From: an uncultured Bacteroidia bacterium
GTDB taxonomy: Bacteria > Bacteroidota > Bacteroidia > Bacteroidales > F082
Direction: 5' to 3'
Assembly (NCBI GenBank): GCA_902801625.1
Contig: CADCJI010000001.1
Coordinates: 124,001-188,000, forward strand
Length of the DNA: 64,000 bases
Shown: piece after piece, positions 3,580 through 38,996 of the stretch
How the letters are laid out: every line of letters begins with the position of its first letter
How positions within the stretch are numbered: the stretch's first letter is position 1
Program-made: the position numbers and the translations under genes
The notes under the pieces: generated by a model
What the model was told of the DNA's origin: nothing
Databases searched by the model: none
Seen by the model: the letters and a program-made list of their open reading frames with translations, nothing else

Positions 3580-5010
3580 TCAGAATCTAAAGTAAATGAA
3601 GGGGTTGAAATCGGAAACGCACAATGAACCTGCTGAGAGGATGAACAAGACCAAGGTGATGGCAAACATGGTCCACGAGAGCGGTTTGGAGTAGCTGTCG
3701 GCGAAAATGCGGTCCTGAAGCTTTTGTCCGAAGGGTAGCAATGTGAGGAAGGAGAACACGACGGCAAGGACGAAGATGCACCAGAACTGTGCGTCGCCAG
3801 CCACCGTCAAGCCACCTTTGAAAGCGAACAATGCTTGATAGAACGCGCCTGCATCGGCTGCCGTGTCGACGCGGAAGAGCACCCAACCCATGGCCACCAG
3901 GAAGAAGGTGATGACGACGGAGGGTAGCATGCCTATTTTCTTTAGGGCATTTTTGAGGAAGAGTTTGTCGGCGCAGATGAACAAACCATGGAAAGCGCCC
4001 CAAAGGACGAAGTTCCACGAAGCTCCGTGCCAGAGTCCTGAAAGAAGGAAACAGAGCCACAGATTGAAATACATGCGTCCCTTGCCTTTGCGGTTGCCGC
4101 CAAGCGGGATGTAGAGGTAGTTCATGATGAAGTTGCCCAAGGTCATGTGCCAGCGTTTCCAAAACTCGGTGACGCTGCGGCTGGTGTAGGGGTCGTTGAA
4201 GTTCTCGGGGAAGCGGAATCCCATCATCTTACCGAGACCGATGGCCATGTCGCTGTAGCCCGAGAAGTCGAAGTAGATCTGGAAGGTGTAGGCGAGGATG
4301 CCAATCCACGCCGTGCCTGTAGCCAAGTCGCCGTATGCCATGCCAAACACTTGGTCGGCGTAGAGTGCCATAGTGTTGGCGATGAGCACTTTCTTTGCCA
4401 AACCGATGACGAAGCGGTAGAAACCCACCACGCGGTTCTCCATCGTGCTTGTGCGTGAGACCAGTTGGGCAGCTACGCTGTTGTAGTTGACAATAGGACC
4501 TGCGATGAGTTGCGGGAACATCATGATATACAGCACATAATCAGTCAGTTTCTGGCTAGGCGGTGTCGTTCCACGATACACATCGATGGTGTAGGTGATG
4601 GATTGGAAAGTGAAGAACGAGATGCCAATAGGCAAGGCCACCTTCATCCAACCGATAGGTTCATGGTGTGCCCAACTCAAGATGGTGTTGAGGTTCTCCA
4701 TGAAGAAGTTGGCGTATTTGAAATAGAGCAGCAGCCCCAAGGCCATAATCACAGAAATGGCACATAGGATTTTTTTCTTTGTTGTAGAGACGGTGTGTAC
4801 ACCGTCTGTACGCCCCATCGCCCTGACGATGAAATAATTGATAACGCATTCGCCGACAAGTAGAAACACAAAGTCGGGGGCACCGTAGGCATAAAACACG
4901 ATGGAGAAGAGCAGGAGCGTGTAGTTTCTGAATTTCTGCGGTGTGATGAAATAGGCTATCAAGAAGATAGGCAGAAAAAAGAAAAGGAAAATGTTGCTGC
5001 TGAATACCAT
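3580..5010 (-). CDS. MBOAT family O-acyltransferase, AlgI-like (copy 2)
   Basis: A 476-residue polytopic membrane protein of the AlgI class, which moves acyl groups from a cytoplasmic donor across the inner membrane. It begins MVFSSNIFLFFFLPIFL, the usual family start. It contains PIGISFFTFQSITY, FPQLIAGPIV, EFWKRWHMTLG, YIPLGG and the MBOAT histidine motif LSGLWHGASWN. Length fits AlgI (about 480-520). Compared with its paralogue at 6379-7848, it has a longer cytoplasmic loop near residue 70 reading RTDGVHTVSTT. That loop is encoded by a 28-bp palindrome found elsewhere in the window, so it looks like a tolerated insertion. Its partner is probably the SGNH protein that starts 3 nt downstream. 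Confidence 0.9.
   Translation of the reverse strand: MVFSSNIFLFFFLPIFLIAYFITPQKFRNYTLLLFSIVFYAYGAPDFVFLLVGECVINYFIVRAMGRTDGVHTVSTTKKKILCAISVIMALGLLLYFKYANFFMENLNTILSWAHHEPIGWMKVALPIGISFFTFQSITYTIDVYRGTTPPSQKLTDYVLYIMMFPQLIAGPIVNYNSVAAQLVSRTSTMENRVVGFYRFVIGLAKKVLIANTMALYADQVFGMAYGDLATGTAWIGILAYTFQIYFDFSGYSDMAIGLGKMMGFRFPENFNDPYTSRSVTEFWKRWHMTLGNFIMNYLYIPLGGNRKGKGRMYFNLWLCFLLSGLWHGASWNFVLWGAFHGLFICADKLFLKNALKKIGMLPSVVITFFLVAMGWVLFRVDTAADAGAFYQALFAFKGGLTVAGDAQFWCIFVLAVVFSFLTLLPFGQKLQDRIFADSYSKPLSWTMFAITLVLFILSAGSLCVSDFNPFIYFRF
4784..4811. repeat. 28-bp palindrome inside MBOAT gene
   Basis: Member of the GTAGAGAC/GTCTCTAC family, here with one arm altered (ends GTCTGTAC). The core is GGTGTGTACACC. 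It sits in frame in the MBOAT gene and codes for GVHTVST. The paralogous gene in the same operon lacks it. Confidence 0.85.
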
Positions 5011-5023
5011 AAGTTATTCTTAT

Positions 5024-6376
5024 TTAGGGTTGGTTATTGTTATCTTGTTCGTTCTTTTGCATTTGAAAGACATACGCAGCGTTCAACCTTAGGTTTTCTT
5101 CTACGCTGATGCCGCGTTCTTGGGCTTGTTGCTGTATGACTCCGAACCATTCCGGGTCTTTTTTGATCGACTCCATAATGGAAAGGATGGCTTCTTGTTC
5201 TTGGGTGCCGCCATTGGCATAAAGCTCCAAGGCAGATTGGGTAAAGCCGCTCATGTAGTTAAGCAGGTAGTTGGAGGTGTAAAGTGCAATCACGATGTCG
5301 GCCTGTTTCAAAGTCTCTGCCGTGCCAAAGAGCTGGTTGAGGTATTTCCAGTTCAACTCAGGTCTTGAAGATATGGAAGTTTGGTTATAGAGCCAGAAAT
5401 CCCATTGTTTGAAGGCATTGACGAAGCAGGAACCTTGCAACGGCGTGAAATATCCGTCGCCTACGACAAGCAGGTTGGGTCGGTCTTTGCCGATGGTATC
5501 CTGCAAAATAAAAACAGGTCGTGAAACCTTGGGTTTGCACAAGGGCAGAAGAAGGTCGATGTGGGTCTCAAGTTCGCCATCCTGGTCGGAATAATCGCGA
5601 CTAAGGTTGGGGTCGATGACCTCAATGGAGGGAAGTCGGTAGCCTGTCAAAGATTCGAGCTTCCTTAGAATTGAGTCGGCCACAAAAGGAATAGTGGCTT
5701 CGGACCAATGGGAGCCTATGCGCGTGTAAAGCGGGTAGGGGAAACTGTTTTTTATCGTTTTGAAATAGCTGTAGAAATCGATGTGTGGAATGTCGTTTTC
5801 CTTGAAAAGTTGGGCGTAATACTCTGCCAACACGAAATCGGAAATGCTGTCTTTGTAGGCCTCGGGCAAGTATTCTGGATAGACTGCCGGCTTGGTGGGA
5901 CAGAGGACAAACAGGAACTGGGTGCCGTGTTGGCGCATGGTTTCGATGAGTGTAAGGGTTTCCTGCACATTCTTTTTGGCTTCGGCTTTGGCGTTTTCAA
6001 TGGAGCCATATTTTTTCACTAACAGTTTACCTGCGACATCATTGATGTTGCTTTTTAGGAAAAACTCATGACATTTGCCTTCAACCACATTGGGGTTGGC
6101 AATTTCTCCGAAACAGTTGTACTCGACTTGGTTATGGCAACGACTGAAAAACTCCCTAAAGCCCGTGCTTTTTATGGCTTGTTGAGCAAGATAATCCTGA
6201 TAGGAGCCGTCAAGGTAGGTGTTCCAACTCAGATCTTGTTTCTCGACCTTCATTTTATCCGTATAAGGACTTAAAGGCTTCGAAGGCACGACATGCGTAA
6301 AGCCCTGCAGCATGATGGCGGCAAGTAGTACTGTGATACAAGCGAATTGGATAATATAGTGCCGTTGCTTATTCAT
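5024..6376 (-). CDS. AlgX/AlgJ-like SGNH protein (short type, copy 1), active site altered
   Basis: A 450-residue protein with one N-terminal membrane segment and a periplasmic SGNH-like domain, paralogous to 2245-3576. It has GFREFFSRCHNQ (about 72-83) and the His motif RIGSHW with H223. Two of three catalytic positions seem lost: Gly221 replaces the Asp two residues before the His, and the Ser motif reads VVGDGYF, so Gly308 replaces the nucleophile. If the alignment is right, this copy cannot act as a serine esterase and may instead bind polysaccharide or hold the MBOAT partner. The C-terminus has the helical motif DPEWFGVIQQQAQERGIS. It lies 2 nt after the MBOAT gene upstream. Confidence 0.75.
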   Translation of the reverse strand: MNKQRHYIIQFACITVLLAAIMLQGFTHVVPSKPLSPYTDKMKVEKQDLSWNTYLDGSYQDYLAQQAIKSTGFREFFSRCHNQVEYNCFGEIANPNVVEGKCHEFFLKSNINDVAGKLLVKKYGSIENAKAEAKKNVQETLTLIETMRQHGTQFLFVLCPTKPAVYPEYLPEAYKDSISDFVLAEYYAQLFKENDIPHIDFYSYFKTIKNSFPYPLYTRIGSHWSEATIPFVADSILRKLESLTGYRLPSIEVIDPNLSRDYSDQDGELETHIDLLLPLCKPKVSRPVFILQDTIGKDRPNLLVVGDGYFTPLQGSCFVNAFKQWDFWLYNQTSISSRPELNWKYLNQLFGTAETLKQADIVIALYTSNYLLNYMSGFTQSALELYANGGTQEQEAILSIMESIKKDPEWFGVIQQQAQERGISVEENLRLNAAYVFQMQKNEQDNNNQP

Positions 6377-6378
6377 GC

Positions 6379-7848
6379 TTAGAACCTGAAATAAATGAAC
6401 GGGCTGAAGCCGCTAGCGTTCAATGCACCGAGGCAGAATATGAAGGCAAGTATGCTGACAATGAAGGCCACGATGTGTTGCCAACGGTTATACTCGGTGA
6501 AGTAGACCTTGTCTTGAACCTTTAAGCCGAACTTCGAGAGGGTGAAGAACGAGAAGAAGGCGGCCACGATCATGGTCACATAGAGGTGCGGGTTGTCGCC
6601 GAAATGGAAAGGAGCGAAGTCGAAGGCAAACAGGCGCTTGATGAACATCCACGACAGGTCGATGCGCTCGATGCGGAAGAAGCAACGGGTCAACACGATG
6701 ATGAGGAAGGTGAAGAATACTGATGGGATGCGTCCTAGTCGTTCGTTGAACTTTTTCAAGAAGAGTTTGTCGGCACAGATGAAAATGCCTTGCAGGGCAC
6801 CGTAGACCACGAAGTTCCATGCAGCGCCATGCCACAAGCCGCTGATGAGGAAGCAGAACCAAAGGTTGAAGTATTTGCGGGCTTCGGTCTTCACGCGGCT
6901 GCCGCCCAGGGGGAAGTAGAGGTAGTTCTTGATGAACACGCTGAAGGTTTGGTGCCAACGCCTCCAAAACTCAGAGATGGTGGTGGATACATACGGGTTG
7001 TCGAAGTTCTCTGGGAACTTGAAACCCATCATGCGACCCAAACCGATGGCCATGTCAGAATATCCTGCAAAGTCGAAATAGATCTGGAAGGTGAAGGCAA
7101 AGATGGCTATCCAAGCGCTAGTGGAGTCGATGGTCGCAATTTTATTGGCGATGTCGGCCAATTGGGCGGAGGTCAGCACATCGTAGTTTGAAGGTCCCAA
7201 GATTTGGTCGACTTGAAAACCGATGACATCAGCAATAAGGATCTTTTTGCACAAACCGATGACGAAACGATAGAAGCCATGCAACCTGTCTGTATAGAGC
7301 GACTCGCGGTTACGAATCTGGTCGGCAATGTCGCAGTAGCGCACGATGGGACCGGCAATCAGTTGCGGGAACATGACGATGTAGAGCATGTAGTCGCTCA
7401 GCCGTTGCATCGGCTCGTTCACTTTGCGGTAAGTGTCCAAGGTGTAGGTGACGCTTTGGAATGAGAAGAACGAGATGCCTATGGGCAGCAGGATTTTGGT
7501 CCATTGCAGCGGTTCGGCGTGGAACCAGCCCAACACCGAGTTGATGTTCTGCATGGTGAAGTTGCCATACTTGAAGTAGAACAGCAATCCAATACTGATG
7601 GCGATGGAGATGCCGCAAAGTAGTTTTTTCAGTCCGGGTTTCTCGGTTTTGTTCATCCACCGCACCAGGTAGAAGTTGGCGATGACCGACACGATGAGGT
7701 GGATGATGAACTCGGGCGCGCCCCAGGCATAGAACACCAGCGAGGCAAGTAGCAGAAAGTAGTTGCGACCTTTCCTCGGTAAGATGAAGTACACGAGGAA
7801 GAAGATGGGCATGAAGTAGAGTAGGAATATGTTGCTGCTGAATACCAT
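6379..7848 (-). CDS. MBOAT family O-acyltransferase, AlgI-like (copy 1)
   Basis: A 489-residue polytopic inner-membrane acyltransferase of the AlgI class. It begins MVFSSNIFLLYFMPIFF and contains PIGISFFSFQSVTY, FPQLIAGPIV, EFWRRWHQTFS, YFPLGGSR and the catalytic-histidine motif ISGLWHGAAWN. It is clearly related to the MBOAT gene at 3580-5010 but has a longer region around residues 215-235 (after DQILGP) and lacks the palindrome-encoded loop. It follows the long SGNH gene by 18 nt and precedes the short SGNH gene by 2 nt. Expected role: supply acetyl groups across the membrane for modification of an envelope or extracellular glycan. Confidence 0.9.
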   Translation of the reverse strand: MVFSSNIFLLYFMPIFFLVYFILPRKGRNYFLLLASLVFYAWGAPEFIIHLIVSVIANFYLVRWMNKTEKPGLKKLLCGISIAISIGLLFYFKYGNFTMQNINSVLGWFHAEPLQWTKILLPIGISFFSFQSVTYTLDTYRKVNEPMQRLSDYMLYIVMFPQLIAGPIVRYCDIADQIRNRESLYTDRLHGFYRFVIGLCKKILIADVIGFQVDQILGPSNYDVLTSAQLADIANKIATIDSTSAWIAIFAFTFQIYFDFAGYSDMAIGLGRMMGFKFPENFDNPYVSTTISEFWRRWHQTFSVFIKNYLYFPLGGSRVKTEARKYFNLWFCFLISGLWHGAAWNFVVYGALQGIFICADKLFLKKFNERLGRIPSVFFTFLIIVLTRCFFRIERIDLSWMFIKRLFAFDFAPFHFGDNPHLYVTMIVAAFFSFFTLSKFGLKVQDKVYFTEYNRWQHIVAFIVSILAFIFCLGALNASGFSPFIYFRF

Positions 7849-7866
7849 ATATTGCGTCTTAACTTG

Positions 7867-9555
7867 TTATTGGAATAGTTCGCCTTTCTCGATTTGTTGG
7901 TTGATGACCCATAAGGCATCTTTTTCAAGCATCACCTCGAAGGAGAGATTTCGCTCATTGGCTTTTTGTTGGATCATATTGACCATTTCTGGATTATGCC
8001 TCCATTTTTCCATGATTTCCAGTTTTTTCATCTGGATAAATGTCGCTGTGTCGAAAACGACTTCATCACGGATGAGCGATTCTCCTTGATCCATGCGTTT
8101 GGCCTCTTCCTTTAGGGCGTCGTCGAGGCTTATGGCTTTTTGAGTGGCATACATTTGGATGGAAGAAAGCCAGTCTTTGTCGGCTTTGATGCGGTTGGCG
8201 AACAAGGCTTGTTCGATGCGCTTGGTGTTGCGGATGGTGGGCATGTCTTCGCCTTCGAGGCCAGGAATGAGTTCGGGGTCGTTTCTCAACATATAGGCCA
8301 TGTTGTTGCGCACCTCTTCATCGGTCATGTCGGAGTAGCCTTCATAATTGCGCATTTGTTTGGCCATGTTGCTGACGGTGGCTTCAAAGAGGCTGTCGCT
8401 GACGCAAAGTTGCAATAGCGCATCCTTGGCAAAACTGTATGTGGCTTCCCACCATTGGTGGCCTGCCGAATAGAACACCACATAATCTGCGTTGAGGATG
8501 TGGCTCAGCCGGTCAATGTCTTTCACACTCTCAGTCTTGTTGTCGAAGCCTTCGTATGCTGTGTTGTTGTAGAACCAAATTTCCCTGTCAGCCATTATGT
8601 CGCGGACGGGCATAAAGTCATTCATGCTATAAATGAACGAGTCGCCTACAAACAGCACCTTGGGCTTGCGGTGCGTGCTGTCGGACTCTACAGTGATGTT
8701 TGACTTGTATTGAGTCTTGTCGCTGTGGATACGGAAAATCAGATTGAGCGTCTCTTCATCACCTTCCAACTTGTCGGACTTGTAGGCTATAGGTGGACCG
8801 ATATGCAATGTGGGAAACTTGGCCTCGCCGTCCAAGGTGTTGATAAAACGGAACAGTGAATCGTAGCCATAGATGGCTGAATAGCGCCAATGGGAGTCGG
8901 TCTTCGGGAAGAGAGGGAACGAGGCGGTATCTCTCATGCTGACAAACCAGTTTGTCATGTTGATGAAGGGGAAGCCGGTTTCTTCCATACGACGAGAGAA
9001 ATACTCGTCTATGTGGATGGTCGTGGTGTCGGCATCGCGGCGAGGCAGGTATTCAGGGTAGACTTCGGGTTTGTCAGGCGCGATGAAGGCGACGAACTCG
9101 ATGCCATAGTCTTTCAGCACATGGCGCAGTTTGTTCATCTGTCGTAGCTCGGTGTCGGCATCTTTCATGGCTTCCTCGTTCGATTTGTAATGCTTCGGTA
9201 GCTCAAGACCATAATGCTCGTTTACCGCCAAGGCATAATATAGATAGCCATCCTTTCCGGGCACGATGAAATGGCAATAGGTCTTGTTGTAGGCCGACCA
9301 CACATATTGGTTGTAGAGCCGAATGACGGGCTCTCTCATTCCGAAATTCTCGCTGACATATTTCTCGGATTGTGTCTGGAAGGTGTTGGATTTATAGTTG
9401 TCGAAAGTCAATCTGGGTTTGGGCGTAGGCTCAAAGACACCTTTCAAAGGCTTCACGGGAAAGATGCCGCCCCATTCCTGGATGATGGGCACGAAAAGAA
9501 AGGCCATCAGCAGGGCAAACAGGATACAATCATATCTAATCCTCGGTTTTTTCAT
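7867..9555 (-). CDS. AlgX/AlgJ-like SGNH protein (long type, copy 1), intact triad
   Basis: A 562-residue protein, first gene of the operon. It has an N-terminal membrane segment (about residues 10-26), GMREPVIRLYNQ (72-83), the His motif KTDSHW (D220, H222) and the Ser motif FVGDSF (S306). It is the only one of the four SGNH paralogues that keeps the full Asp-x-His plus Ser pattern known from AlgX and AlgJ, so it is the best candidate for the active O-acetyltransferase. The C-terminal third carries two copies of the shared helical motif (about 460-490, and 525-555 reading MVNMIQQKANERNLS). A -7 box lies at 9590-9597, giving a short leader. Confidence 0.8.
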   Translation of the reverse strand: MKKPRIRYDCILFALLMAFLFVPIIQEWGGIFPVKPLKGVFEPTPKPRLTFDNYKSNTFQTQSEKYVSENFGMREPVIRLYNQYVWSAYNKTYCHFIVPGKDGYLYYALAVNEHYGLELPKHYKSNEEAMKDADTELRQMNKLRHVLKDYGIEFVAFIAPDKPEVYPEYLPRRDADTTTIHIDEYFSRRMEETGFPFINMTNWFVSMRDTASFPLFPKTDSHWRYSAIYGYDSLFRFINTLDGEAKFPTLHIGPPIAYKSDKLEGDEETLNLIFRIHSDKTQYKSNITVESDSTHRKPKVLFVGDSFIYSMNDFMPVRDIMADREIWFYNNTAYEGFDNKTESVKDIDRLSHILNADYVVFYSAGHQWWEATYSFAKDALLQLCVSDSLFEATVSNMAKQMRNYEGYSDMTDEEVRNNMAYMLRNDPELIPGLEGEDMPTIRNTKRIEQALFANRIKADKDWLSSIQMYATQKAISLDDALKEEAKRMDQGESLIRDEVVFDTATFIQMKKLEIMEKWRHNPEMVNMIQQKANERNLSFEVMLEKDALWVINQQIEKGELFQ

Positions 9556-9589
9556 TGAGCGTCAGGCTATTTTATATGGTTTAAACTTG

Positions 9590-9597
9590 CAAAAATA
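9590..9597 (-). promoter_or_regulatory. -7 box for the acetylation operon
   Basis: Reads TATTTTTG on the minus strand, matching TAnnTTTG. It lies 34 nt before the start codon at 9555, divergent from the box at 9629-9636. Confidence 0.6.
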
Positions 9598-9628
9598 CTA
9601 AAAAACTCGTTATAGTCCCGAAAAACTG

Positions 9629-9636
9629 TACCTTTG
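9629..9636 (+). promoter_or_regulatory. -7 box for the U32 gene
   Basis: Reads TACCTTTG, matching TAnnTTTG, and ends only 4 nt before the ATG at 9641. Transcription would begin at or next to the start codon, so the mRNA may be leaderless. Confidence 0.65.
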
Positions 9637-9640
9637 CAGC

Positions 9641-11398
9641 ATGAAAACGAAGAAGATAGAACTGCTCTCGCCTGCCAAGGACTGCGAGGTGGGCATGGCC
9701 GCCATCAACCATGGCACGGATGCTGTCTATATTGGTGGCCCCGATTTTGGTGCTCGCGAAAAAGCCTCCAATAGCATTCAAGACATTGAACGCCTTTGCC
9801 GCCATGCTGCCTTGTATGACGCCAAAGTGTATGTCACGCTGAATACATTGTTGTATGACAACGAGTTGGAACGCGCCCGAAAGATTGCTTTTGATTGCTG
9901 GAACGCAGGCGTTGATGCCCTCATCGTGCAGGATATGCAACTGCTCCAACTCGACCTGCCGCCCATCCCGCTCCATGCCAGCACGCAGTGCGACAACCTG
10001 ACTGTGGAGAAAGTACAGCAGTTGGAGCAGTTAGGCTTCAGCCAAGTTGTTTTGGGTCGCGAATTGAGCCTGAAGCAGATTCGGGAGATTCGGGAGAAGA
10101 CCACGGTGCCCTTGGAGTTTTTTGTGCATGGTGCTTTGTGCGTTAGCCATAGCGGACGGTGCTATCTCAGCCAGTATATTGGCAACCGCAGTGCTAATCG
10201 TGGTGCCTGCGCCCAGCCCTGCCGCTTGCCATGGGATTTGCTCGATGAGAACGGGAAGGTGTTGATCAAAAACCGACACTTGCTTTGCTTGAAAGACCTC
10301 AACAACAGCGCCCATTTGGAGGAATTGATTGATGCCGGCATCACGAGCTTCAAGATTGAAGGCCGACTGAAAGACGCTGACTATGTGAAGAATGTGACCG
10401 CTTATTACCGCCAAAAGTTGGATGAGATCATAAGCCGTCGCCCCGATTTGGAGCAGGCTTCATACGGACATTGCAATTATACAATTGATATCAACCCTGA
10501 GAAATCCTTCAACCGGGGTTTCACTGATTATTTCATCAATGGGCGACAAAAAGGTATTGGTTCGCCGTTCACGCCGAAATCGATAGGTGAATACATCGGT
10601 GAGGTCAGTTGGTGCAATCCGCTTCGAATGGAGATTGAAACCGACAAGACCTTGCACAACGGTGATGGCCTGTGTTTCCTAAACCAGGACAACGAATTGG
10701 TGGGTCTGCGGGCCGATGTGGTAAACATCGGTAGAGACGGTGTGCACACCGTCTCTACAAACCGACCCCACGGTGCCTATCGTGGTGCAAAAATCTATCG
10801 TAACCTCGACCTCGAATGGCAGAAACAGGTGGAGGCGTCAACGGGCAACCGCAAAATTGACATTGATTTGGTTTTGTCCGAAACGGAAACGGGGTATGAA
10901 TTGTCCGCATTTATCCGTAGAGACGCACGGCCGTGCGTCTCTACCGGCATACAATGCGACAAAATCCTCGCCAACAACCCTGAAAAGGCCACCGAGAACA
11001 TCCAGAAAAAGGCCCTTCAATGGGGCGACACGGTTTTCAATCCCGTCAATCTGGAATTGAAATTCAATGAACCGCGTCTCATCCCTGCCTCGGTCATTGG
11101 CGAGATGAAACGGGAATTGGTGGTGAAATTAACAGAGGAATTGGTTGAAAATCATAAGAATAACCGTGAATGCCGTAGAGAAGGTGCATGCACCGTCTCT
11201 ACAACGGTCACAAATCCCGATGAAATTCCTGCCGCATTAATGACCTGCCACCATTGCATCCGTTACGCCAATGGGATGTGCAGCAAGGAAACGGGGCAGA
11301 AGGCAACGCCGCTGTATATCCGCAACGGTGCTAACACCTTCCGCCTCGAATTTGACTGTCGAAATTGCCTGATGCGTGTTATGGCCGTCGCTGATTGA
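9641..11398 (+). CDS. U32 family protein, RlhA/TrhP-like RNA hydroxylation factor
   Basis: A 585-residue U32 protein. Members once called peptidases include E. coli RlhA and TrhP, which hydroxylate cytidine in 23S rRNA or uridine in tRNA. The start is IELLSPAKDCEVGMAAI and the signature region FFVHGALCVSHSGRC (about 160-174) is intact. Four cysteines (167, 174, 190, 194) form the conserved cluster. A C-terminal collagenase-like extension follows, then CHHCIRYANGMC and CRNCLM, which may bind another metal. Three 28-bp palindromes are inserted in frame: residues about 364-373 (RDGVHTVST), 426-435 (RDARPCVST) and 512-521 (REGACTVST). All lie after the core domain and none breaks the frame. RlhA fits length and layout better than TrhP. 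Confidence 0.9.
   Translation: MKTKKIELLSPAKDCEVGMAAINHGTDAVYIGGPDFGAREKASNSIQDIERLCRHAALYDAKVYVTLNTLLYDNELERARKIAFDCWNAGVDALIVQDMQLLQLDLPPIPLHASTQCDNLTVEKVQQLEQLGFSQVVLGRELSLKQIREIREKTTVPLEFFVHGALCVSHSGRCYLSQYIGNRSANRGACAQPCRLPWDLLDENGKVLIKNRHLLCLKDLNNSAHLEELIDAGITSFKIEGRLKDADYVKNVTAYYRQKLDEIISRRPDLEQASYGHCNYTIDINPEKSFNRGFTDYFINGRQKGIGSPFTPKSIGEYIGEVSWCNPLRMEIETDKTLHNGDGLCFLNQDNELVGLRADVVNIGRDGVHTVSTNRPHGAYRGAKIYRNLDLEWQKQVEASTGNRKIDIDLVLSETETGYELSAFIRRDARPCVSTGIQCDKILANNPEKATENIQKKALQWGDTVFNPVNLELKFNEPRLIPASVIGEMKRELVVKLTEELVENHKNNRECRREGACTVSTTVTNPDEIPAALMTCHHCIRYANGMCSKETGQKATPLYIRNGANTFRLEFDCRNCLMRVMAVAD
10731..10758. repeat. 28-bp perfect palindrome in U32 gene (1)
   Basis: GTAGAGACGGTGTG followed by its exact reverse complement. 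Encodes RDGVHTVST in frame. Confidence 0.95.
10917..10944. repeat. 28-bp perfect palindrome in U32 gene (2)
   Basis: GTAGAGACGCACGG followed by its exact reverse complement. Same ends as the copy at 10731 but a different core, still self-complementary. Encodes RDARPCVST. Confidence 0.95.
11175..11202. repeat. 28-bp palindrome in U32 gene (3)
   Basis: GTAGAGAAGGTGCA followed by TGCACCGTCTCTAC, one mismatch between the arms. Third copy in the same gene. Encodes REGACTVST. Confidence 0.93.
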
Positions 11399-11400
11399 GT

Positions 11401-11874: not shown

Positions 11875-11933
11875 AACAATTGAATTTTAGAGGTTACCTG
11901 AAACTTGGTTTTAAGTCTTCGAAAACTTTCTGG

Positions 11934-11941
11934 CAAAAGTA
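11934..11941 (-). promoter_or_regulatory. -7 box for the small lipoprotein
   Basis: TACTTTTG on the minus strand, about 60 nt before the start at 11874. Confidence 0.5.
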
Positions 11942-12045
11942 TATAAAAAATCCGCCATTTTTTCAAGTCCAATGGGCATTACAAACTTTTGAAAACCCAT
12001 CTGTTTGGCATTTAATGTGTTATGGTTTTATTTTACAACTTTTTC

Positions 12046-14181
12046 TTACTCTTTCATCACCCGCGCCACACGGTTTTTCCCTTCCCCATCGGTAATGCGC
12101 AGCAAATAAATGCCTTCCGGCAAGCCCGCCACATTGATTTCATTTGTGTTTTCCACCGTCTTCACCAATTGCCCGAGACTATTGTAAATTTTCACTTCGG
12201 TAGCGGTTGCGCCTTCAACACGGACAATGTCGTTAGCGGGATTGGGATATAAACTGACGCTCTCAACGGCAGCTTCCTCCACATCGTCCCAACATTCGCC
12301 GTCTGTCCAAACGAGGTTGTCATCCTCAAAATAGCACTGCAAGTAAGCAAAACCACTTGCCGTCCAACCAGGAATGTACCGCCAATTGATGCCCGACAAG
12401 CTGCCAATGCCCTCAATCCAAACTTCAGGCTCTTCCATTAACCAACCTTCATTGAAGACATACTTATTACGCACCGAGCCATCTTCCAAAACGACCTCTT
12501 CAATAGCCATCAATTGGATGTATTCAGGCTCGTCGCCATAACCCACTTCAAACAAGTCGCCGACTTGGAGATTGAAGTCATAATAGACTTCCTCCTCCAT
12601 AATATGCGGTATTGCAGTCGAATAACGCCTGAGATACACCTTTTTGCCTTCCTCACGCAAAAGGCCAAATGGAACTGTGTAATTCAGCTCATCATATAAT
12701 ACAGTCAACTCCCTATAGGTTTGTCCCTCATACTCAATTTTATCGCCAAGTCTCGCGATTTCGTATTGCGAATCTCCATAATAGAAAACAAACCGCATAT
12801 CCCATTGCCTCTCTCCAGATTCAGGAATCAAAGGATAATACATTGTAATATCTTCAAAGAGTTGCGTCGTCCACACATATTCAGGCTGGACACCACTCCG
12901 TCCGGTAACAGCCACTCTTCCGTCGTCGAACACGTAGACCGAGGAAATGGCATCGTCGCGGTCGTCCCTGTCGTGGCGATAACAGCCCGTCATTTCGCCC
13001 GTTGCGGCATCCAATTTGAGCACGATGTAATCATAACCGTGTCCCGCTCCCAATCTTTGGCTCTGGCCACCCACATAGACATGCCCGTTTCTGAAGAAAA
13101 GCGCATTACCGATGTCGGCGTTGTTGCCGCCAAACGCATAGCGGTTTTCCCAAAGCAGCTGTCCGTCGGGACTGTATTTCAGCGTGAGAATGTCGTTGTT
13201 GGTGTGGTTGGGCATTCCGTAATTCGAACCGAAGTGTCTGCCCGTTACATAGATGTTGCCTTCCTCATCTTGCACCATCGCCCTGATTTCGTCGCCCGAC
13301 ACATTACTGGGCAAATTGGTGCCATAATCATGTGCCCACACCAAGTTTCCTTCCGAATCGATTTTGGAAACTTTATAAGCCATTGTTGCCGTGACCAACA
13401 GATGATGGTCAGGGGTCGATTGGACGTTCGAGAATCCCCTTGTATCGCATGCGGTGCCCTCAAAAATCAGGTTGTTGTCGAGATCTAGTTTGGTCAAATG
13501 CCTGTTTGCCCCAAACAAAAGCAGCGTTCCGTCCATGGCGAAAATATCATAAAGGAAAGGATTGGCATCATTGGCATCAAAGTCTCTCTGCCACAACAGA
13601 TTGCCATCAGCATCGTAGCAAAACAACTGCGGGATGGTAACAGTGACAATGTAGTCATCGCCAGGTGCGGGATAATCGTATTCCCTGTAGGAGGCCAAAA
13701 CCAAACGGCCATCGGAGGCCAAAACCAGATGCTGGGCCATGAATGACGTGTCGGCCTCATTTTGGATGGTTTCTTCCCAAACCAAGTCGCCATCCGAAGT
13801 GAATTTCTGGAGGACAACTCTCGATTTGTAAAACTCAAGTCGCTCATTACAAAGGATATAGACATTATCAGAGGCATCAATCTGATAACTAACGATAGTC
13901 TTTTCGTAGGGCGAATTGGTGCCAAATGTTTTTGTTGAAACAATGGTTCCGTATATGTCATAGGTGACCATCTCCAACTGGGTTTCACCGTTGTTGAGCG
14001 TCACTCCCGTCACCTCGATGTATTCTTTCACGTCTTCAATGCCGCGGACGACAGGGGTACTGGAAATATAGTTGACATTCCCAACTTGATAGTCTTCTGA
14101 CCAAAGCAGATCAGATTGTGCCTTCGTCATGCCCGCCACTGCCATCAGGGCAAGCAAAGTATATATCTTTAAGTTTTTCAT
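12046..14181 (-). CDS. T9SS cargo with delta-60/beta-propeller-like repeats
   Basis: A 711-residue secreted protein: signal peptide ending GMTKAQ, then a long region of repeated strands such as DGRLVLASY, DNVYILC, EGNIYVTGRHF and NGHVYVGGQSQ. These resemble propeller or delta-60 repeats seen in Bacteroidota surface proteins. A second part (about 480-620) has YEIARLGDKIEYEGQTYRELTV and resembles the body of the small gene at 15818-16702. The last 75 residues are a T9SS type A sorting domain: VSLYPNPANDIVRV, VKIYNSLGQLVKTV, GLPEGIYLLRI. The start codon overlaps the stop of the upstream gene as ATGA. Function is unknown; cell-surface or released location is expected. Confidence 0.85.
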   Translation of the reverse strand: MKNLKIYTLLALMAVAGMTKAQSDLLWSEDYQVGNVNYISSTPVVRGIEDVKEYIEVTGVTLNNGETQLEMVTYDIYGTIVSTKTFGTNSPYEKTIVSYQIDASDNVYILCNERLEFYKSRVVLQKFTSDGDLVWEETIQNEADTSFMAQHLVLASDGRLVLASYREYDYPAPGDDYIVTVTIPQLFCYDADGNLLWQRDFDANDANPFLYDIFAMDGTLLLFGANRHLTKLDLDNNLIFEGTACDTRGFSNVQSTPDHHLLVTATMAYKVSKIDSEGNLVWAHDYGTNLPSNVSGDEIRAMVQDEEGNIYVTGRHFGSNYGMPNHTNNDILTLKYSPDGQLLWENRYAFGGNNADIGNALFFRNGHVYVGGQSQRLGAGHGYDYIVLKLDAATGEMTGCYRHDRDDRDDAISSVYVFDDGRVAVTGRSGVQPEYVWTTQLFEDITMYYPLIPESGERQWDMRFVFYYGDSQYEIARLGDKIEYEGQTYRELTVLYDELNYTVPFGLLREEGKKVYLRRYSTAIPHIMEEEVYYDFNLQVGDLFEVGYGDEPEYIQLMAIEEVVLEDGSVRNKYVFNEGWLMEEPEVWIEGIGSLSGINWRYIPGWTASGFAYLQCYFEDDNLVWTDGECWDDVEEAAVESVSLYPNPANDIVRVEGATATEVKIYNSLGQLVKTVENTNEINVAGLPEGIYLLRITDGEGKNRVARVMKE

Positions 14182-15821
14182 TGTATCGTTATTTTATTTG
14201 TGTAAATATTTCCATCGGCATCCGCAATTCGCAGCAGGTAAACGCCTTGCGGCAAGCCTGCCAAACTCACCTCATTAGAGTTCCGCACGCTCTTCACCAC
14301 CTGCCCCAAAGCATTATAAAGCCAAACCTCTTCAGCCTCAACACCACATATCCGCACCAAGTCCTTACTCGGATTAGGATAAACCCCAACACCATCTCCA
14401 CTCCATCCCTCCTGTTCCTCGATGCCGTCATAGTCATAAATGTCGGTAAGATGGAAAACCCAATAGTTATCCTGCGACCCCACCACCACATTGGGACAAT
14501 TGATATCGCCGTAGGGATAAGGCGGCGGGTACAAGGCATCCTGGCAAAGAAAGACAAACTCCTTGTCGCTGACTTGTACGGCATCGGCATATTCTTGAGC
14601 CGAAGCCACATCAGCACCCATCACCCGCTCCCACAATAGATAACCTTTGGCATCCGTCCTGAAAATCCAAGGCTTTGGAGCCCCCCATGAACCATCGGGG
14701 TTTTCATACAACTGCAAAGCACTTTGCACATCGCCATCCCTTGATTCCGACCATCCAGTAATTGTAAATCCACCATCGTCATTTTGGAAAACTTTATACG
14801 CAGCATCATTAAGAGTGCCGCCATAGCATTTGCTCCAGACCACATTACCATCGAAATCAGTTTTCAGAAGCCAAGCATCATGACTGCGACCGTGATGGGG
14901 AAGACCTTGGTTGTAGCCCAAATGATAACCGGCTCCTCCAAGGTCGCCATCATCCGAAGCCGCACAACCCACATAGAGATAGCCGTCTTCAAGCACAATG
15001 AAATCGGCAAAAGAATCATCTTGGGTATAGCCGCCGTAGCATCGGTTATCCAACAAATTGCCTTCAGCATCTAATTTGGCCACCACCCCGAACACAATAG
15101 TCGGATACTGGTTGCAACTATAAAGAGAGCCATATTGTTGGGGATCGCCGTTAATCAATACTGTATAGGAGCCATCTTCCATTTCCTTGATATTGCTGAC
15201 CAATTCATTGTCTTCGGTCCCCAAGGTAACTTCCCATTGCAGGTTGCCGAGGCTGTCCAACTTGAAAATCCAGGCATCCCATGAACCATAATGATGGCTG
15301 ATGTCACCGCCGTTCCATGCTACGGTATGACCGCCGACACATCCTCCGTCACTTGTTGCGGTAACTCTCGGTGGATACCATGAAGTGTACGCTGGGTTCC
15401 CTATGACACGCTTCCAAAGCACATTGAACTGTTCATCTATCTTTACGATACATGTATTGGCTTCATCACCAACAAAGTCTGTCCCAATCAAATAGAAATG
15501 GTTGGGATTTGTCTTGGATTGAGATATTTGGGATATAGTGTTCATTTCCACACACGATTGGTCAACCAGTTCCCCGGCTTCATTCAGTTTGATAATCCAA
15601 CCGTTTCGTTGGCCAGTGTGTTCGCATTCAACGGAGAAGCCTCCGTCATTGTCAATGTTTCCTCCAGCCAAATAACCATCTGGAGTTTTGATGATGCAAT
15701 AGGGATAATCATCGCCCATGCTGCCATAGCCCCATTGCCAGTCGAAACGAACTTGGGCTTGCATCGCCCCTCCCGCCATCATCAGGAGCGCAAGCAGGGT
15801 GTAAAGTCTAATGTTTTTCAT
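14178..15821 (-). CDS. T9SS cargo with repeated propeller-like strands
   Basis: A 547-residue secreted protein with a signal peptide ending GAMQAQ. The body contains repeated units such as KTPDGYLAGGNIDNDGG, ATSDGGCVGGHTVAWNGG and NDDGGFTITGWSESRDGD, a pattern typical of surface proteins with beta-propeller-like repeats. It ends with a type A sorting domain: VGVYPNPSKDLVRI, VWLYNALGQVVKSV, GLPQGVYLLRI. The last 30 residues are almost identical to those of the gene just upstream, while the rest differs. It overlaps both neighbours by 4 nt (ATGA), so the three genes are translationally coupled. No enzymatic motif was recognised. Confidence 0.85.
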   Translation of the reverse strand: MKNIRLYTLLALLMMAGGAMQAQVRFDWQWGYGSMGDDYPYCIIKTPDGYLAGGNIDNDGGFSVECEHTGQRNGWIIKLNEAGELVDQSCVEMNTISQISQSKTNPNHFYLIGTDFVGDEANTCIVKIDEQFNVLWKRVIGNPAYTSWYPPRVTATSDGGCVGGHTVAWNGGDISHHYGSWDAWIFKLDSLGNLQWEVTLGTEDNELVSNIKEMEDGSYTVLINGDPQQYGSLYSCNQYPTIVFGVVAKLDAEGNLLDNRCYGGYTQDDSFADFIVLEDGYLYVGCAASDDGDLGGAGYHLGYNQGLPHHGRSHDAWLLKTDFDGNVVWSKCYGGTLNDAAYKVFQNDDGGFTITGWSESRDGDVQSALQLYENPDGSWGAPKPWIFRTDAKGYLLWERVMGADVASAQEYADAVQVSDKEFVFLCQDALYPPPYPYGDINCPNVVVGSQDNYWVFHLTDIYDYDGIEEQEGWSGDGVGVYPNPSKDLVRICGVEAEEVWLYNALGQVVKSVRNSNEVSLAGLPQGVYLLRIADADGNIYTNKITIQ

Positions 15822-16702
15822 CGTTTCGTGATTTTGTTCGTGTAAATATTTCCTTCCGCATCCGCAATGCGCAGCAGGTAAACGCCTTGCGGCAAACCCG
15901 CCATGTTGATTTCATGGCTGTCTTTCACAGTCTTCACCATTTGTCCAAGGGTATTATAAACCTGTACTTCGGCAGGTTCTAAGCCTTCGATGCTAACCGT
16001 CTCGGATACCGGATTGGGGTAGATAGAAACCGCAGGCGCAACTTCTTCCTCCACGGCATCAATCATGCAGGTGCCATAATATTCGTTTTGCCAAAACAAC
16101 TCTCCGTTTTGGTGGAAACACAGGGCACGGTAGTAGCCTCCAGTGACATAATACCATCCGCTGAAGAGCAAGCCCATGTCGCTGCCAATGCCTTCTGTCC
16201 AAGTCTCGATGGCCACCGGTTCTCCCGTAAAGTCATATTCCAATCCGAACCAGAACTTTCTCCTGTCCTTGCCTCCAATTTGCTCTATGCTAATGGAATC
16301 AACGACAAAATAATCAAATTCTTGGAAATCGCCAAATCGCAAGGTGTCGCCGACTTGGGCAGTGAAATCATAAATCAAAATATCGGTCGCCGATTTTCTT
16401 TTCCAGACTTTGCCGTCTTCTTCCCTCAACAGGGTGGCTAATCGCGGCGTGCCTTCACCATTTCTGGTCTCCAACACTTTTGTGTATCGAACGCCATCAA
16501 CGAGCGTGTCGTCCGAAAGCCAATGGACCAAAGTGCTGTAATGATGGTTTGGCGGAAAGCCAGGGTTTACGATGACATCAAGGGTGTACCATTCGTTGCC
16601 TTCCTGAATAATCGGTTCATAGTCTTGCGCCTTCGCCATGCCCGCCATTGCCAGCAACAGGAGGAGAAGGACTTTTGCCTTTTTGTGGGTTGGTTTGTTC
16701 AT
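15818..16702 (-). CDS. small T9SS cargo protein
   Basis: A 294-residue secreted protein, first of the coupled T9SS trio. The start is set at MNKPTHKKAK because a -7 box at 16730-16737 lies just ahead, which rules out the longer frame reaching 16732. Signal peptide ends GMAKAQ. The middle (GEGTPRLATLLREEDGKVWKR, TAQVGDTLRF, WTEGIGSDMGLL) matches a surface-protein module repeated in 12046-14181. The type A sorting domain follows: VSIYPNPVSETVSI, VQVYNTLGQMVKTV, GLPQGVYLLRI. Function unknown. Confidence 0.85.
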   Translation of the reverse strand: MNKPTHKKAKVLLLLLLAMAGMAKAQDYEPIIQEGNEWYTLDVIVNPGFPPNHHYSTLVHWLSDDTLVDGVRYTKVLETRNGEGTPRLATLLREEDGKVWKRKSATDILIYDFTAQVGDTLRFGDFQEFDYFVVDSISIEQIGGKDRRKFWFGLEYDFTGEPVAIETWTEGIGSDMGLLFSGWYYVTGGYYRALCFHQNGELFWQNEYYGTCMIDAVEEEVAPAVSIYPNPVSETVSIEGLEPAEVQVYNTLGQMVKTVKDSHEINMAGLPQGVYLLRIADAEGNIYTNKITKR

Positions 16703-16729
16703 TGTCTGTTGTTTTAATATTGTCGTAGG

Positions 16730-16737
16730 CAAAACTA
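16730..16737 (-). promoter_or_regulatory. -7 box for the T9SS trio
   Basis: TAGTTTTG on the minus strand, 27 nt ahead of the ATG at 16702. It fixes the start of the first gene. Confidence 0.5.
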
Positions 16738-16854
16738 TAACAAAAAAGCATCAAATAAGCAACATACAAGCCAAACTACAGATTTTTCTTGGTTTGAAAC
16801 AATGCAAAATATTGAAATACAATAAACTATAAAAACCGAAGTACAGATTTTTGT

Positions 16855-18363
16855 TTAGCCCAACAAGTCGGAAACAGGGCTTTTCCCCACCTTTTTGATG
16901 AGGTCGGAGCGGTATTTCATCACCGTGTTTTGGCTTAGTTCCAAAATCTCGGCTTCTTCCTTGATGCGGAATTTGAGAAAGTTGAGTACAAGCAAATCGC
17001 GCTCTTGTTCGCTCAAGTCGGGGTAGGTGGATTTCAGTTTTTCATAAACATCGGGGTATGCCTTGTTGAAGGCTTCCAAGATACCCTCGCGTGAAGGGTC
17101 GGCTTTGTCGTAAAGGGTCTTCACTTCCTTCAGCAAGTCATCAAAAGTCTTTTCCTTTAAGGCGGTTTGGGCTTCGCTCAACTGTTGGTTAAAGGCTTCG
17201 CGCTGTTGGTCGAAAGCCTCTTGTTGCTGTTGGTGTTCCTCGCGGAGGTCGGCTTCGGTTTGTTTATGGCGCTTGTGGGCGACCCAAAGCACCAGTCCAA
17301 GCGCCAAAATCACCAGCAATATGATGGCTCCTATCAAAAGGTTCTGTCGCTGTGTTTGTCGCTTTTGCAACAAGGTGTCGGCTTCCTGTTTTTCCTGAAT
17401 GTAGTTGTTGAATAATGCGGTAAGTTCTGATGTTACAGGCGCGAAGGCTTCTTTTGCGTGAGGATATTGCGCCAAAAGACGCGCATATTCGTTCATCTTT
17501 TCGGTCTCGCCCAAAGCTTCATAAACCTCGTGCAAATACTCTATGGTTTGGGCTTTTGCTGTCATGTCCGAAAGACCCAATTGTTCAAACTTCTCATGAG
17601 CCCGATTCAGATACACCAGCGCCGAATCAAACTGTTTCTCCTCTTTATAAATCCAACCGATGGTCAATTCAACATCCTGGTTGTCAACTTCACTACAATG
17701 CGGAAGCAGGGCTTTCAGGTCGCGGATAACGGGTTCTGCATCGTGATGAAGCTTGTAGTCGATGATACCTTTCCTTGAGACCGACATCCTGAAATTGAGT
17801 TCGGAAGAATCGTTTTCGAAGCATCTTATTGCGCTGTCGTAGTAATAGCAAGCACTGTCAAAACTATCACAAATGTCGAATCCATAGGCAATCAAAAACA
17901 AAGTGCTCCCAAATGATTTGCGCGAGTTCGAGTATTTCTTATTGATAGCCAAGGCCTGGCGATAGAAATAAGAAGTTGCTTCCGGCAACAAGGAAATCGA
18001 ATATTGGGTCCCCTGACCCTTATAAGTTCTCTGAAGGAGATTGATTATACTCCTGTCAGGTTTTGTAAGCTGCTCTATTTCAGGAAGATTATCAACAGAA
18101 AAGCGTTCCTCCAATAGTCCCAACACTTGGTAGAATTCTTTGCAACAGGCTACAGTGCTATCCATTTCCCAATAATGCATGGCATTTTGGTAGAGGGTAT
18201 TGGCAATGTTATATATGGAATCGGCACGAAGGCTGTCGGCGGTTGCATCCATTTGTGACGGATCTTCAACCTTTCGACCGGCCTCAACGGTTGGCTCAGG
18301 TTTGCCACAAGCAGCCAATAGTATGGCGCAAATGGATGTTGCTATGATATGATGGATTTTCAT
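16855..18363 (-). CDS. membrane-anchored TPR protein with C-terminal LuxR-like HTH
   Basis: A 502-residue protein. The start is MKIHHIIATSI, because a -7 box lies 5 nt upstream and inside the alternative longer frame. It begins with a lipoprotein-like signal (LLAACGK), followed by TPR-like helices (about 30-290), one strong membrane segment (LLIGAIILLVILALGLVLW), a Gln/Glu-rich coiled coil, and a C-terminal helix-turn-helix (LSEQERDLLVLNFLKF, then ELSQNTVMKYRSDLIKKVG). This layout is common in Bacteroidota: periplasmic TPR sensor, transmembrane helix, cytoplasmic LuxR-type DNA-binding end. Having both a lipobox and a membrane helix is odd; the lipobox may not be used. Target genes are unknown. 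Confidence 0.82.
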   Translation of the reverse strand: MKIHHIIATSICAILLAACGKPEPTVEAGRKVEDPSQMDATADSLRADSIYNIANTLYQNAMHYWEMDSTVACCKEFYQVLGLLEERFSVDNLPEIEQLTKPDRSIINLLQRTYKGQGTQYSISLLPEATSYFYRQALAINKKYSNSRKSFGSTLFLIAYGFDICDSFDSACYYYDSAIRCFENDSSELNFRMSVSRKGIIDYKLHHDAEPVIRDLKALLPHCSEVDNQDVELTIGWIYKEEKQFDSALVYLNRAHEKFEQLGLSDMTAKAQTIEYLHEVYEALGETEKMNEYARLLAQYPHAKEAFAPVTSELTALFNNYIQEKQEADTLLQKRQTQRQNLLIGAIILLVILALGLVLWVAHKRHKQTEADLREEHQQQQEAFDQQREAFNQQLSEAQTALKEKTFDDLLKEVKTLYDKADPSREGILEAFNKAYPDVYEKLKSTYPDLSEQERDLLVLNFLKFRIKEEAEILELSQNTVMKYRSDLIKKVGKSPVSDLLG

Positions 18364-18368
18364 GGGGG

Positions 18369-18376
18369 CAAAAGTA
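18369..18376 (-). promoter_or_regulatory. -7 box for the TPR-HTH gene
   Basis: TACTTTTG on the minus strand ends 5 nt before the ATG at 18363, implying a near-leaderless transcript and deciding the start. Confidence 0.6.
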
Positions 18377-18394
18377 GGGAATTTTTCCAAATCA

Positions 18395-19381
18395 TCACCT
18401 CACAAGGTCGTTATACCCGAAAACCACCTCCAAGCTTTTCCCTTTGAAGTATTCCCTCACTTGGTTTTCAGTCCATTCCGTAGCAGCCAAAATAAAATCG
18501 CCGCCCCAAGCGCCCAAGGATTTCAAAACTCCCTCGAAATCGGGGAAATGTTTTTGAACTGGTTCTTGCCCAATGCAGCGGCTGATGATGCGTTCGTGGC
18601 ATTGCATAAGCATAGCGAATTCGTCCAAACTTTCACATTTCGGCACGGCACGGCTGATTTCCGAAACTGATTCTATATCTTTATGTAAATCAATGGGATT
18701 TGCTTGGGCTAAAAACGCCTTGATTTCCTTTGAGGAACTTTGCTTTTGGCCTTGGTAGATGAAAAACAGATGCTCGGCAAAGGGTGGGTCGAAATCTATA
18801 GGTTCAACTATGGGAGTCGGCCCTTCGACGGGCTCAGGGACCTTAGCTGGTAAATCAAGCGTAGGCCGTTGAGCTTGTCGAAACGCCGATTTAGACATGG
18901 ACAATTGATAATAAATTGGTCCTTCTGCCGTGGCGCAAGCGATGTCATAACCCGAACCACCAAAGGTCAGCTTCAGCAATTCGTATGGATTGACATCAGC
19001 CCATCGCGCCAAATTGGCAATCAAGGTAGAACTGCTGCCGAGCCCCCAATTCGGGTCGAAGTCGAGATGGGTTGTGAATATCAAGTTGTTGCTTTCAAAA
19101 GCCTTGGGATTCAATTGCTTGACGGCTTGCAGGATTTGTCTTAGTTTTTCGGCTTTAGGTTGGTCATCGCTGTCGATAATTTCAAGGTTTTCGGGGTTTA
19201 AGGATACAGTAAACCAAGGGGCATTGGGTTTGTGGGCGTTCCATTGTAGAGATGGTGTGCACACCGTCTCTACCTCCAATGTCTGTCCCAATTTTAACGG
19301 CACTGCCAAAGCCAACGCACCTTTCAAGACGAGATATTCGCCTGTCAACAAAAATTTTCCGTGGGCTTGGTAAAGGCTCAT
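18395..19381 (-). CDS. GYDIA family GHMP kinase (mevalonate pathway type)
   Basis: A 328-residue GHMP-fold kinase. It starts with HGKFLLTGEYLVLKG, has the phosphate-binding motif GLGSSSTLIAN (about 113-123) and GGSGYDIACAT (about 141-151), the signature that names the family in Bacteroidota. It probably phosphorylates mevalonate or phosphomevalonate: the gene overlaps that of HMG-CoA reductase by 4 nt. Two foreign-looking insertions are in frame: a 28-bp palindrome giving VETVCTPSL (about residues 37-45), and a second repeat family giving FRQAQRP and VPEPVEG (about 167-187). Both sit between conserved motifs, so the enzyme is probably still active. Confidence 0.87.
   Translation of the reverse strand: MSLYQAHGKFLLTGEYLVLKGALALAVPLKLGQTLEVETVCTPSLQWNAHKPNAPWFTVSLNPENLEIIDSDDQPKAEKLRQILQAVKQLNPKAFESNNLIFTTHLDFDPNWGLGSSSTLIANLARWADVNPYELLKLTFGGSGYDIACATAEGPIYYQLSMSKSAFRQAQRPTLDLPAKVPEPVEGPTPIVEPIDFDPPFAEHLFFIYQGQKQSSSKEIKAFLAQANPIDLHKDIESVSEISRAVPKCESLDEFAMLMQCHERIISRCIGQEPVQKHFPDFEGVLKSLGAWGGDFILAATEWTENQVREYFKGKSLEVVFGYNDLVR
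18821..18886. repeat. TTCGAC-type inverted repeat inside GHMP kinase gene
   Basis: Left arm CCCTTCGACGGGCTCAGGGA, right arm GGCCGTTGAGCTTGTCGAAA. It is in frame and codes for FRQAQRP on one side and PEPVEG on the other. Related copies occur at 23771, 34069, 48553, 51041 and 59546. Confidence 0.85.
19246..19273. repeat. 28-bp palindrome inside GHMP kinase gene
   Basis: GTAGAGATGGTGTG then CACACCGTCTCTAC: one mismatch in the arms. Read in a different frame from the U32 copies, giving VETVCTPSL. Confidence 0.93.
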
Positions 19382-31261: not shown

Positions 31262-31268
31262 TCGGTTA

Positions 31269-38968: not shown

Positions 38969-38996
38969 GTAGAGACGTAGCGCGCTACGTCTCTAC
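38969..38996. repeat. 28-bp palindrome between CYTH and SLC13 genes
   Basis: GTAGAGACGTAGCG followed by its exact reverse complement. It lies 12 nt after the CYTH stop and 13 nt before the permease start; a frame through it (RDVARYVST) joins the permease frame but probably is not translated. Confidence 0.92.

Follow-up and report, generated by a model that had tools for sequence, protein, structure and literature searches.

A GTAG-tagged palindrome resident in protein loops of Bacteroidales, with different cores at fixed coding sites

A GTAG-tagged palindrome of 28 bp recurs in a 64-kb window from an uncultured Bacteroidia bacterium (C1:124001-188000 of a genome of 3.58 Mb in 62 contigs, 84% complete), where several copies are read in frame as part of proteins. 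Descriptions of short palindromic repeats usually place them outside genes. In this family, copies resident in genes, including those for a fumarate reductase/succinate dehydrogenase flavoprotein (SdhA) and a U32-family peptidase, appear to have been overwritten repeatedly with the hairpin preserved, such that different cores are already found where the flanks have diverged by 3%. We interpret the family as a mobile palindrome similar to REPINs (REP, repetitive extragenic palindrome) that has long resided in protein loops and whose cores are exchanged between copies, and give this reading a probability of about 0.6. Two old questions become testable by sequencing alone, namely the concerted evolution of REP-like repeats and the gain of new protein loops; a 1988 review by Higgins and others is said to have put the question of gene conversion in its title.

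A dispersed palindrome in genes and between them

In its own genome, the palindrome occurs in 49 copies with perfect ends (GTAGAGAC...GTCTCTAC), against 0 for a reversed-pattern control, and in 102 copies when up to 3 mismatches are allowed, against 29 for the control. About ten core classes are represented among the 49 copies; nearly all cores are self-complementary, and several have one recurrent T-G pair. Within the window, GTAGAGAC occurs 11 times versus 0.81 expected, and three copies (10731, 10917 and 38969) combine perfect ends with a perfect palindrome, where 100 dinucleotide shuffles of the window gave an expectation of 0. An earlier reading of the window from its letters alone (the sequence-only reading) had proposed searching the full genome for the end motifs; the count lies far above chance, and a chance origin of the palindrome family is excluded. 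An assembly artifact is unlikely, given that independent genomes have palindromes at these same sites.

Of 45 genomes sampled from the same genus, 44 have copies with perfect ends (up to 82 each), as do 6 of 74 genomes from other genera of the family (1-3 copies each); over both groups, the reversed control occurred once, in one genome. Across a sample of the order, 111 of 295 genomes and 77 of 183 genera were positive, with up to 49 copies outside the genus and 5 occurrences of the reversed control in four genomes. Constancy of the ends across genomes follows from the end-pattern search, but the cores, among the copies listed, are lineage-specific and largely self-complementary (for example, GTAGCATGCTAC in genome G358 and GTTGCATGCAAC in G210). 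The palindrome may also travel on phages or proviruses, since it was found in 109 stretches of viral-classed contigs (L250-L358); two 30-bp queries gave no match in plasmids. Among 107 distinct viral elements, the 10-bp core is perfectly self-complementary in 46, compared with 0.1% by chance, and has one unpaired position in 53 and more in 8.

Of the 49 perfect-ended copies, 20 lie in frame within long open reading frames (ORFs) and 29 elsewhere, the latter in AT-rich flanks (GC 0.23). Placement was judged by eye on the length of each ORF and the content of its protein, and it covers frame-keeping copies, with frame-breaking insertions outside the search; ORFs of L008, L009 and L010 that looked spurious or started beside a copy were left out of the count. 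Sixteen of the in-frame copies are read as VETxxxxSL and four as RDxxxxVST, while the third phase contains TAG, just as the sequence-only reading had it when it found two of three phases open. Hosts include SdhA and U32 (two perfect-ended copies and one imperfect) as well as proteins that, read by eye, resemble Vsr, Ogt and LptD. In the window, the coding palindromes described earlier are confirmed in the U32 gene, in a gene of the MBOAT family (TDGVHTVST) and in a gene that had been called a GHMP kinase (VETVCTPSLQ). Pfam backs the first two names but not the third, for which the protein has no match (E 0.001); 'GHMP' serves here as a label. An MBOAT paralogue at 6379-7848, said to lack the insert, indeed holds no exact copy of the end motif.

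Compared with insert-free relatives, resident copies add a net 5 to 8 residues, and an alignment of SdhA with PDB 9lay_A has an 8-residue gap facing the palindrome. The U32 protein, whose nearest relatives come, by record title, from uncultured Bacteroidales, many from ruminant guts and 'bacterium F082' included, was modeled with AlphaFold (mean predicted local distance difference test score, 89.3). In this model, site 1 is predicted to form the turn between strands 360-363 and 369-372, site 2 the turn between strands 418-425 and 431-438, and site 3 to fall in coil 508-531, with site residue numbers obtained by hand arithmetic. The best insert-free contrasts are SdhA, for which 6 loci are 24 nt shorter, and U32 site 1 (10 loci) and MBOAT (5 loci), for which the gap is 13 versus 28. 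A first search found no clean empty site with exact flanks, and in a looser search the loops were too variable for clean boundaries. None of the 49 copies has a target duplication of 3 bp or more (2 bp in 4), as is expected for Y1-type movement, and the target preference is for A at +1 and +2, with no strong motif otherwise.

By eye, putative type IX secretion C-terminal domain proteins in seven loci (L015, L022, L023, L031, L047, L048 and L050) also carry the palindrome, at one position of the domain and with several differing cores in one genome.

Different cores in one register

Eight coding sites were compared in orthologues, with the own locus included and loci without both flanks dropped. 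Palindromes were present in 17 of 36 loci at U32 site 1, 18 of 38 at site 2, 18 of 26 at site 3 and 7 of 13 at the MBOAT site (80 loci offered each); in 28 of 29 at the GHMP site (110 offered; own locus twice; 22 distinct sequences); in 4 of 18 at the SdhA site (30 offered; one is half of a doublet and one is decayed); and in 26 of 29 and 27 of 30 at sites A and C of L035 (30 offered each). Some of the U32 matches are halves of related GTAGGGAC doublets. This orthologue comparison, also suggested by the sequence-only reading, reveals that the same residues are not common to all orthologues.

All 27 palindromes at L035 site C have identical left and right junctions to the nucleotide, and one register likewise takes in 24 of the 28 GHMP rows. 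The single register at site C holds, as labeled here, seven core classes (9, 4, 4, 3, 3, 2 and 2 rows), or six if GCACGGCCGTGC and GTACGGCCGTAC, which are one paired change apart, are joined. Across 872 same-register pairs of distinct sequences (28-bp elements with 60-bp flanks at most 40% apart), mean divergence was 17.7% in the flanks, 7.6% in the ends and 47.1% in the cores; with duplicate rows retained (990 pairs), the values were 17.8%, 8.0% and 47.0%. Core distances are bimodal, with peaks at 0-1 and 6-10 of 12 positions. Cores therefore change as blocks, their divergence being 47% and bimodal versus 18% in flanks and 8% in ends. Even among the 76 pairs with flanks less than 10% apart, 29 differ at five or more of the 12 core positions, and L191 and L194 at L035 site C have 120 flanking bases 3.3% apart, identical ends and cores that differ at 8 of 12. 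Sequence pairs are not independent, and the safer figures are the number of classes per site and the minimum core-class changes on the gene tree, which come to 13-15 at L035 site C (27 rows; a quick tree with 7 of 27 inner branches weak) and 14 at site A (26 rows). At the SdhA site, whole units differ: one register is occupied by two distinct singlets in L160 and L161 and by a doublet in L162, and flank identity to L160 is 83-96%.

Self-complementarity is retained through these changes. At L035 site C (27 rows, 24 distinct), 94.9% of cells are paired compared with 77.6% after shuffling, changes occur on both sides in 10 of 14 pairs, and the covariation score is 0.472 versus 0.137. Shuffled alignments, in which row relatedness remains, scored as high in 0 of 500 cases on four of five measures and in 13 of 500 for further pair types; structures slid along site C reached at most 56% pairing and a score of at most 0.130. 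Paired compensating changes also occur within the otherwise constant ends and arms (L204, L209, L211, L212 and L214). The earlier proposal that structure rather than sequence is kept is thus borne out by covariation and by the changes within arms.

Separately, the close orthologues L212, L213 and L214 (L035 site C) suggest the loss of a pair in the arm followed by its restoration, at a fixed site.

Weighing core exchange

In the mechanism we propose, the constant ends of 8-9 bp (GTAGAGACG...CGTCTCTAC) would be the parts recognized or matched in copying, and the 10-bp middle would be free apart from the need for self-pairing. Insertion without target duplication would probably proceed via a single-stranded hairpin intermediate, and copies that keep the frame in surface loops could persist for long as extra residues. 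Resident copies would then be overwritten by exchange between palindromes with common ends; the segment replaced would be either the middle alone or, with the junctions unchanged, an entire singlet or doublet. A mismatch in an arm would be restored by a change on the opposite side. Dispersal, self-complementarity, residence in frame, replacement of blocks in a fixed register, paired changes in the arms and the lack of target duplication are observed; we infer that there is a hairpin intermediate, that the agent is a Y1 (HUH) enzyme or template switching, and that the donor is another copy in the same cell. In G092 (L194), the core classes of sites A and C recur elsewhere in the same genome, by eye among the matches listed, which include none for G100. 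A stricter form treats coding hairpins as cassettes whose 8-9 bp ends let other genomic copies overwrite them, with either a Y1-type enzyme acting on single strands or hairpin-driven template switching as the agent; this form is tentative and on balance rather unlikely. If true, loops of about ten residues in core enzymes would be continually rewritten with the insertion site unmoved, and cassette exchange would be a standing generator of loop diversity across the genus.

Several observations weigh against core exchange, a reading drawn from sequence comparison. All 29 close-flank pairs with divergent cores come from the two L035 sites, that is, from one gene. At site A of this gene, the flanks of L190 and L191 also differ from those of L192 and L194, and part of the pattern is therefore accounted for by ordinary homologous recombination; at site C, the flanks of L203 are chimeric, and interspecies recombination moves some alleles together with their flanks and can raise the tree counts. 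The own core at site C, GTACGGCCGTAC, occurs once among the 49 perfect-ended copies, so no donor is visible there; it may alternatively have arisen from GCACGGCCGTGC via one paired change. GTAG pairs with CTAC in a full palindrome here, whereas in a canonical GTAG-REP it is unpaired and present at one end only. A PF01797 match was found in 43 of 60 genomes of the genus (136 matches in total), but a perfect-ended copy lay within 450 bp of the Y1 gene in 0 of the 33 loci checked, one of which has a copy farther off (L159), and the RAYT-like (REP-associated tyrosine transposase) neighbor gene anticipated by the sequence-only reading was not found at these loci. Copy number and Y1 count were not significantly correlated in 25 genomes of the genus (rho 0.31, p 0.14), 8 of which have no PF01797 match and still hold 1-28 copies; one of the eight, G014, matches the NF047646 RAYT model weakly. 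In the order, RAYTs over the NF047646 cut-off are not associated with the palindrome (25 of 111 palindrome-bearing genomes versus 33 of 184 others, p 0.37), and only loose matches to this model co-occur with it (100 of 111 versus 106 of 184, Fisher p 9e-10), both tests being uncorrected for phylogeny and genome size. Four IS200-like Y1 genes are encoded in the own genome, together with a methyltransferase ORF into which a Y1 domain is fused; the best canonical RAYT match of this genome is under the NF047646 cut-off.

An unlikely alternative is that the loops are hot spots that took up a separate insertion in every species at one and the same position, with no exchange within residents. Unrelated repeats do share the same linkers in sister species, where GTAGGGAC doublets (REP doublets), HCEERSN-type palindromes, LRQAQGP-type repeats or TCAACTG-type runs lie in frame; at U32 site 1, L056 and L077 have a different repeat followed by the apparent right half of the palindrome. 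Registers can also differ: at U32 site 2, eight copies lie at one register and 7 are shifted by 3 nt. Against this, 27 of 27 palindromes at L035 site C and 24 of 28 GHMP rows lie on the same nucleotide, and so many hits on one base would need a target specificity of which none is visible beyond A at +1 and +2. At U32 site 3, L060 and L088 share GTCTCAAC and 12 flanking bases around different cores, a further hint against independent insertions.

Point mutation in place, with compensating changes and selection for the hairpin but no exchange, is improbable as an account of the cores. It finds some support in the double changes within arms at single sites (L204, L209, L211 and L212/L214) and in intermediates with a wobble pair, for example T-G at core position 2, but it fits poorly with bimodal core distances, with the many cores that belong to a small shared set of classes rather than drifting freely, and with the contrast between core and flanks in L191 and L194.

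Retention of the hairpins for some function in the host (RNA structure, or binding of a nucleoid protein or regulator), with mobility incidental, is very doubtful: the strong covariation and the AT-rich flanks of the 29 copies outside counted ORFs are in its favor, but G-U is not in excess over A-C on the coding strand and the family is patchy, with no perfect-ended copy in 184 of 295 genomes of the order and 1 of 45 of the genus. Coding-strand mismatches in 130 distinct elements comprised 45 G-T, 53 A-C and 62 others, and because G-T and A-C are about equal, mRNA folding is not the likely cause; selection on an mRNA hairpin is not supported, and RNA pairing is not favored over DNA symmetry. 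It is also unlikely that every copying event rebuilds the palindrome from one of its halves, because cores with a wobble mismatch, GTGCCATGGCGC for example, are shared by many copies.

Known repeats and features of the window

The nearest relatives are GTAG-REPs and REPINs, because the tag is GTAG and not CGTC. These share with the present family the GTAG tag, a short hairpin, dozens of copies, inverted doublets and the presence of some copies in ORFs (PMC3733652, PMC3116915), and likewise have stem families with paired alternative residues. A case of different REPs near the same site has been described in recB of two Xanthomonas species (PMC3733652). The palindrome is nonetheless not a canonical GTAG-REP, because GTAG is paired and no perfect-ended copy lies beside the gene at the 33 Y1 loci checked (of 136 matches); the 49 copies begin with GTAG and end with CTAC by the search pattern, and the window copies and orthologous sites have these ends in most rows. 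In contrast to GTAG-REPs and REPINs, singlets are more numerous than doublets here: the non-viral loci fetched contain 134 distinct singlets and 7 distinct inverted doublets that have these ends, a ratio biased because many loci were fetched for their singlets. The checks for a linked transposase gene found none, and many species differ in the core they have at a single register. The share of copies in genes (20/49) is above that expected of REPs, yet still a minority.

GTAG repeats have been named for Proteobacteria, Cyanobacteria, Chloroflexi and the PVC (Planctomycetes, Verrucomicrobia, Chlamydiae) group, with Bacteroidetes listed among the phyla of CGTC repeats (PMC3733652). The likeness to Rickettsia palindromic elements that the sequence-only reading had drawn holds for palindromes inserted in frame into many genes that are likely functional, but not for the tag, which is CGTC in Rickettsia, or the phylum, a contrast drawn from the published description (PMC3733652). 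Group 3 REPs with TnpAREP share a GTAG adjoining a perfect 8-bp stem (in the Stenotrophomonas maltophilia case) and differ in their three-base loop, in a GTAG outside the stem and in a linked TnpAREP gene, none being found linked here (PMC8266576). TnpA-Y1 subclass 1.2, from Cyanobacteria and Bacteroidetes, has a motif similar by eye to that of the Y1 protein in L018 (YIKKQKEHH versus YIKNQKEHH), with a looser likeness in the other three Y1 proteins of the own genome (PMC6006769), but no perfect-ended palindrome lies beside the Y1 genes checked here. A DDE-type miniature inverted-repeat transposable element would differ in its target-site duplication, of which none of 3 bp or more is present in the 49 copies. 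REPINs and their transposases are covered in PMC3116915, PMC8266576, PMC6006769 and PMC8049555, while PMC3733652 deals with repeats tagged GTAG or CGTC, with copies inside genes and with a single same-site case. Among the entries listed from the open-licence literature searched, we found no description of this palindrome family or of cores being exchanged at in-frame sites that stay fixed; of 529 papers containing one of four sequence strings, the 25 listed appear by title to be unrelated.

A palindrome or a decayed copy is present at each of the eight positions listed by the sequence-only reading (Table 1), which had described them as 28 bp and self-complementary; this is perfectly so at 10731, 10917 and 38969, but 44932 is decayed and 51574 is 27 bp long. 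It had also placed three copies between genes. That description fits 44932, which starts four bases past an ORF, and probably 38969, which lies within a TTG-started ORF (38959-40602) yet upstream of its Pfam symporter match and so probably before the true start, but not 51574, which overlaps the final codons of a minus-strand 150-aa ORF without a Pfam match. The position corresponding to 44932 in L088 has a better-kept palindrome.

Table 1 Genes, palindromes and related doublets in the 64-kb window
Feature	Position	Strand	Details
MBOAT-family gene	3580..5010	-	PF03062, E 1e-31; hosts palindrome 4784
Palindrome	4784..4811		28 bp; 1 end mismatch; core GGTGTGTACACC; in frame in MBOAT gene
U32 peptidase-family gene	9641..11398	+	Pfam; three palindromes in frame
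Palindrome (U32 site 1)	10731..10758		Core GGTGTGCACACC; translated GRDGVHTVST
Palindrome (U32 site 2)	10917..10944		Core GCACGGCCGTGC; translated RRDARPCVST
Palindrome (U32 site 3)	11175..11202		1 end mismatch; core GGTGCATGCACC; translated CRREGACTVST
Gene called GHMP kinase earlier	18395..19381	-	No Pfam match; hosts palindrome 19246
Palindrome	19246..19273		1 end mismatch; core GGTGTGCACACC; gene frame VETVCTPSLQ ('GHMP' gene)
GTAG-tagged inverted doublet	31184..31264		GTAGGGCTGTC...; related but separate family; canonical GTAG REP pair in appearance
Palindrome	38969..38996		Core GTAGCGCGCTAC; probably upstream of symporter gene
Palindrome	44932..44959		Intergenic; decayed; 1 end mismatch; 4/14 positions unpaired
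Palindrome	51574..51600		27 bp; 2 end mismatches; right end decayed; core GCATTGAATGC
GTAG-tagged inverted doublet	55667..55741		GTAGGGCTGTC...; related but separate family; canonical GTAG REP pair in appearance

Other repeats and Y1 domains were seen along the way. Residues 160-190 of the 'GHMP' gene (18395-19381) contain a second in-frame repeat, FRQAQRP...EPVEG, which matches the own genome and other genomes of the genus elsewhere; a similar form, LRQAQGP, occupies the SdhA loop in sister species. The 1347-aa ORF of a PglX/Eco57I-like methyltransferase at L020:1-3177 (G000:C27:24902) contains an in-frame Y1/RAYT-like domain, which apparently splits the methylase region ahead of FDVVIGNPPYV, and similar short Y1 matches occur in open frames of more than 1000 aa in G124 (two), G150 and G104. 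Small hairpins of another family, resembling CATCCCTACGGGATG, lie beside IS200-like Y1 genes in L016 (positions 1255 and 1929) and L019 (position 2034).

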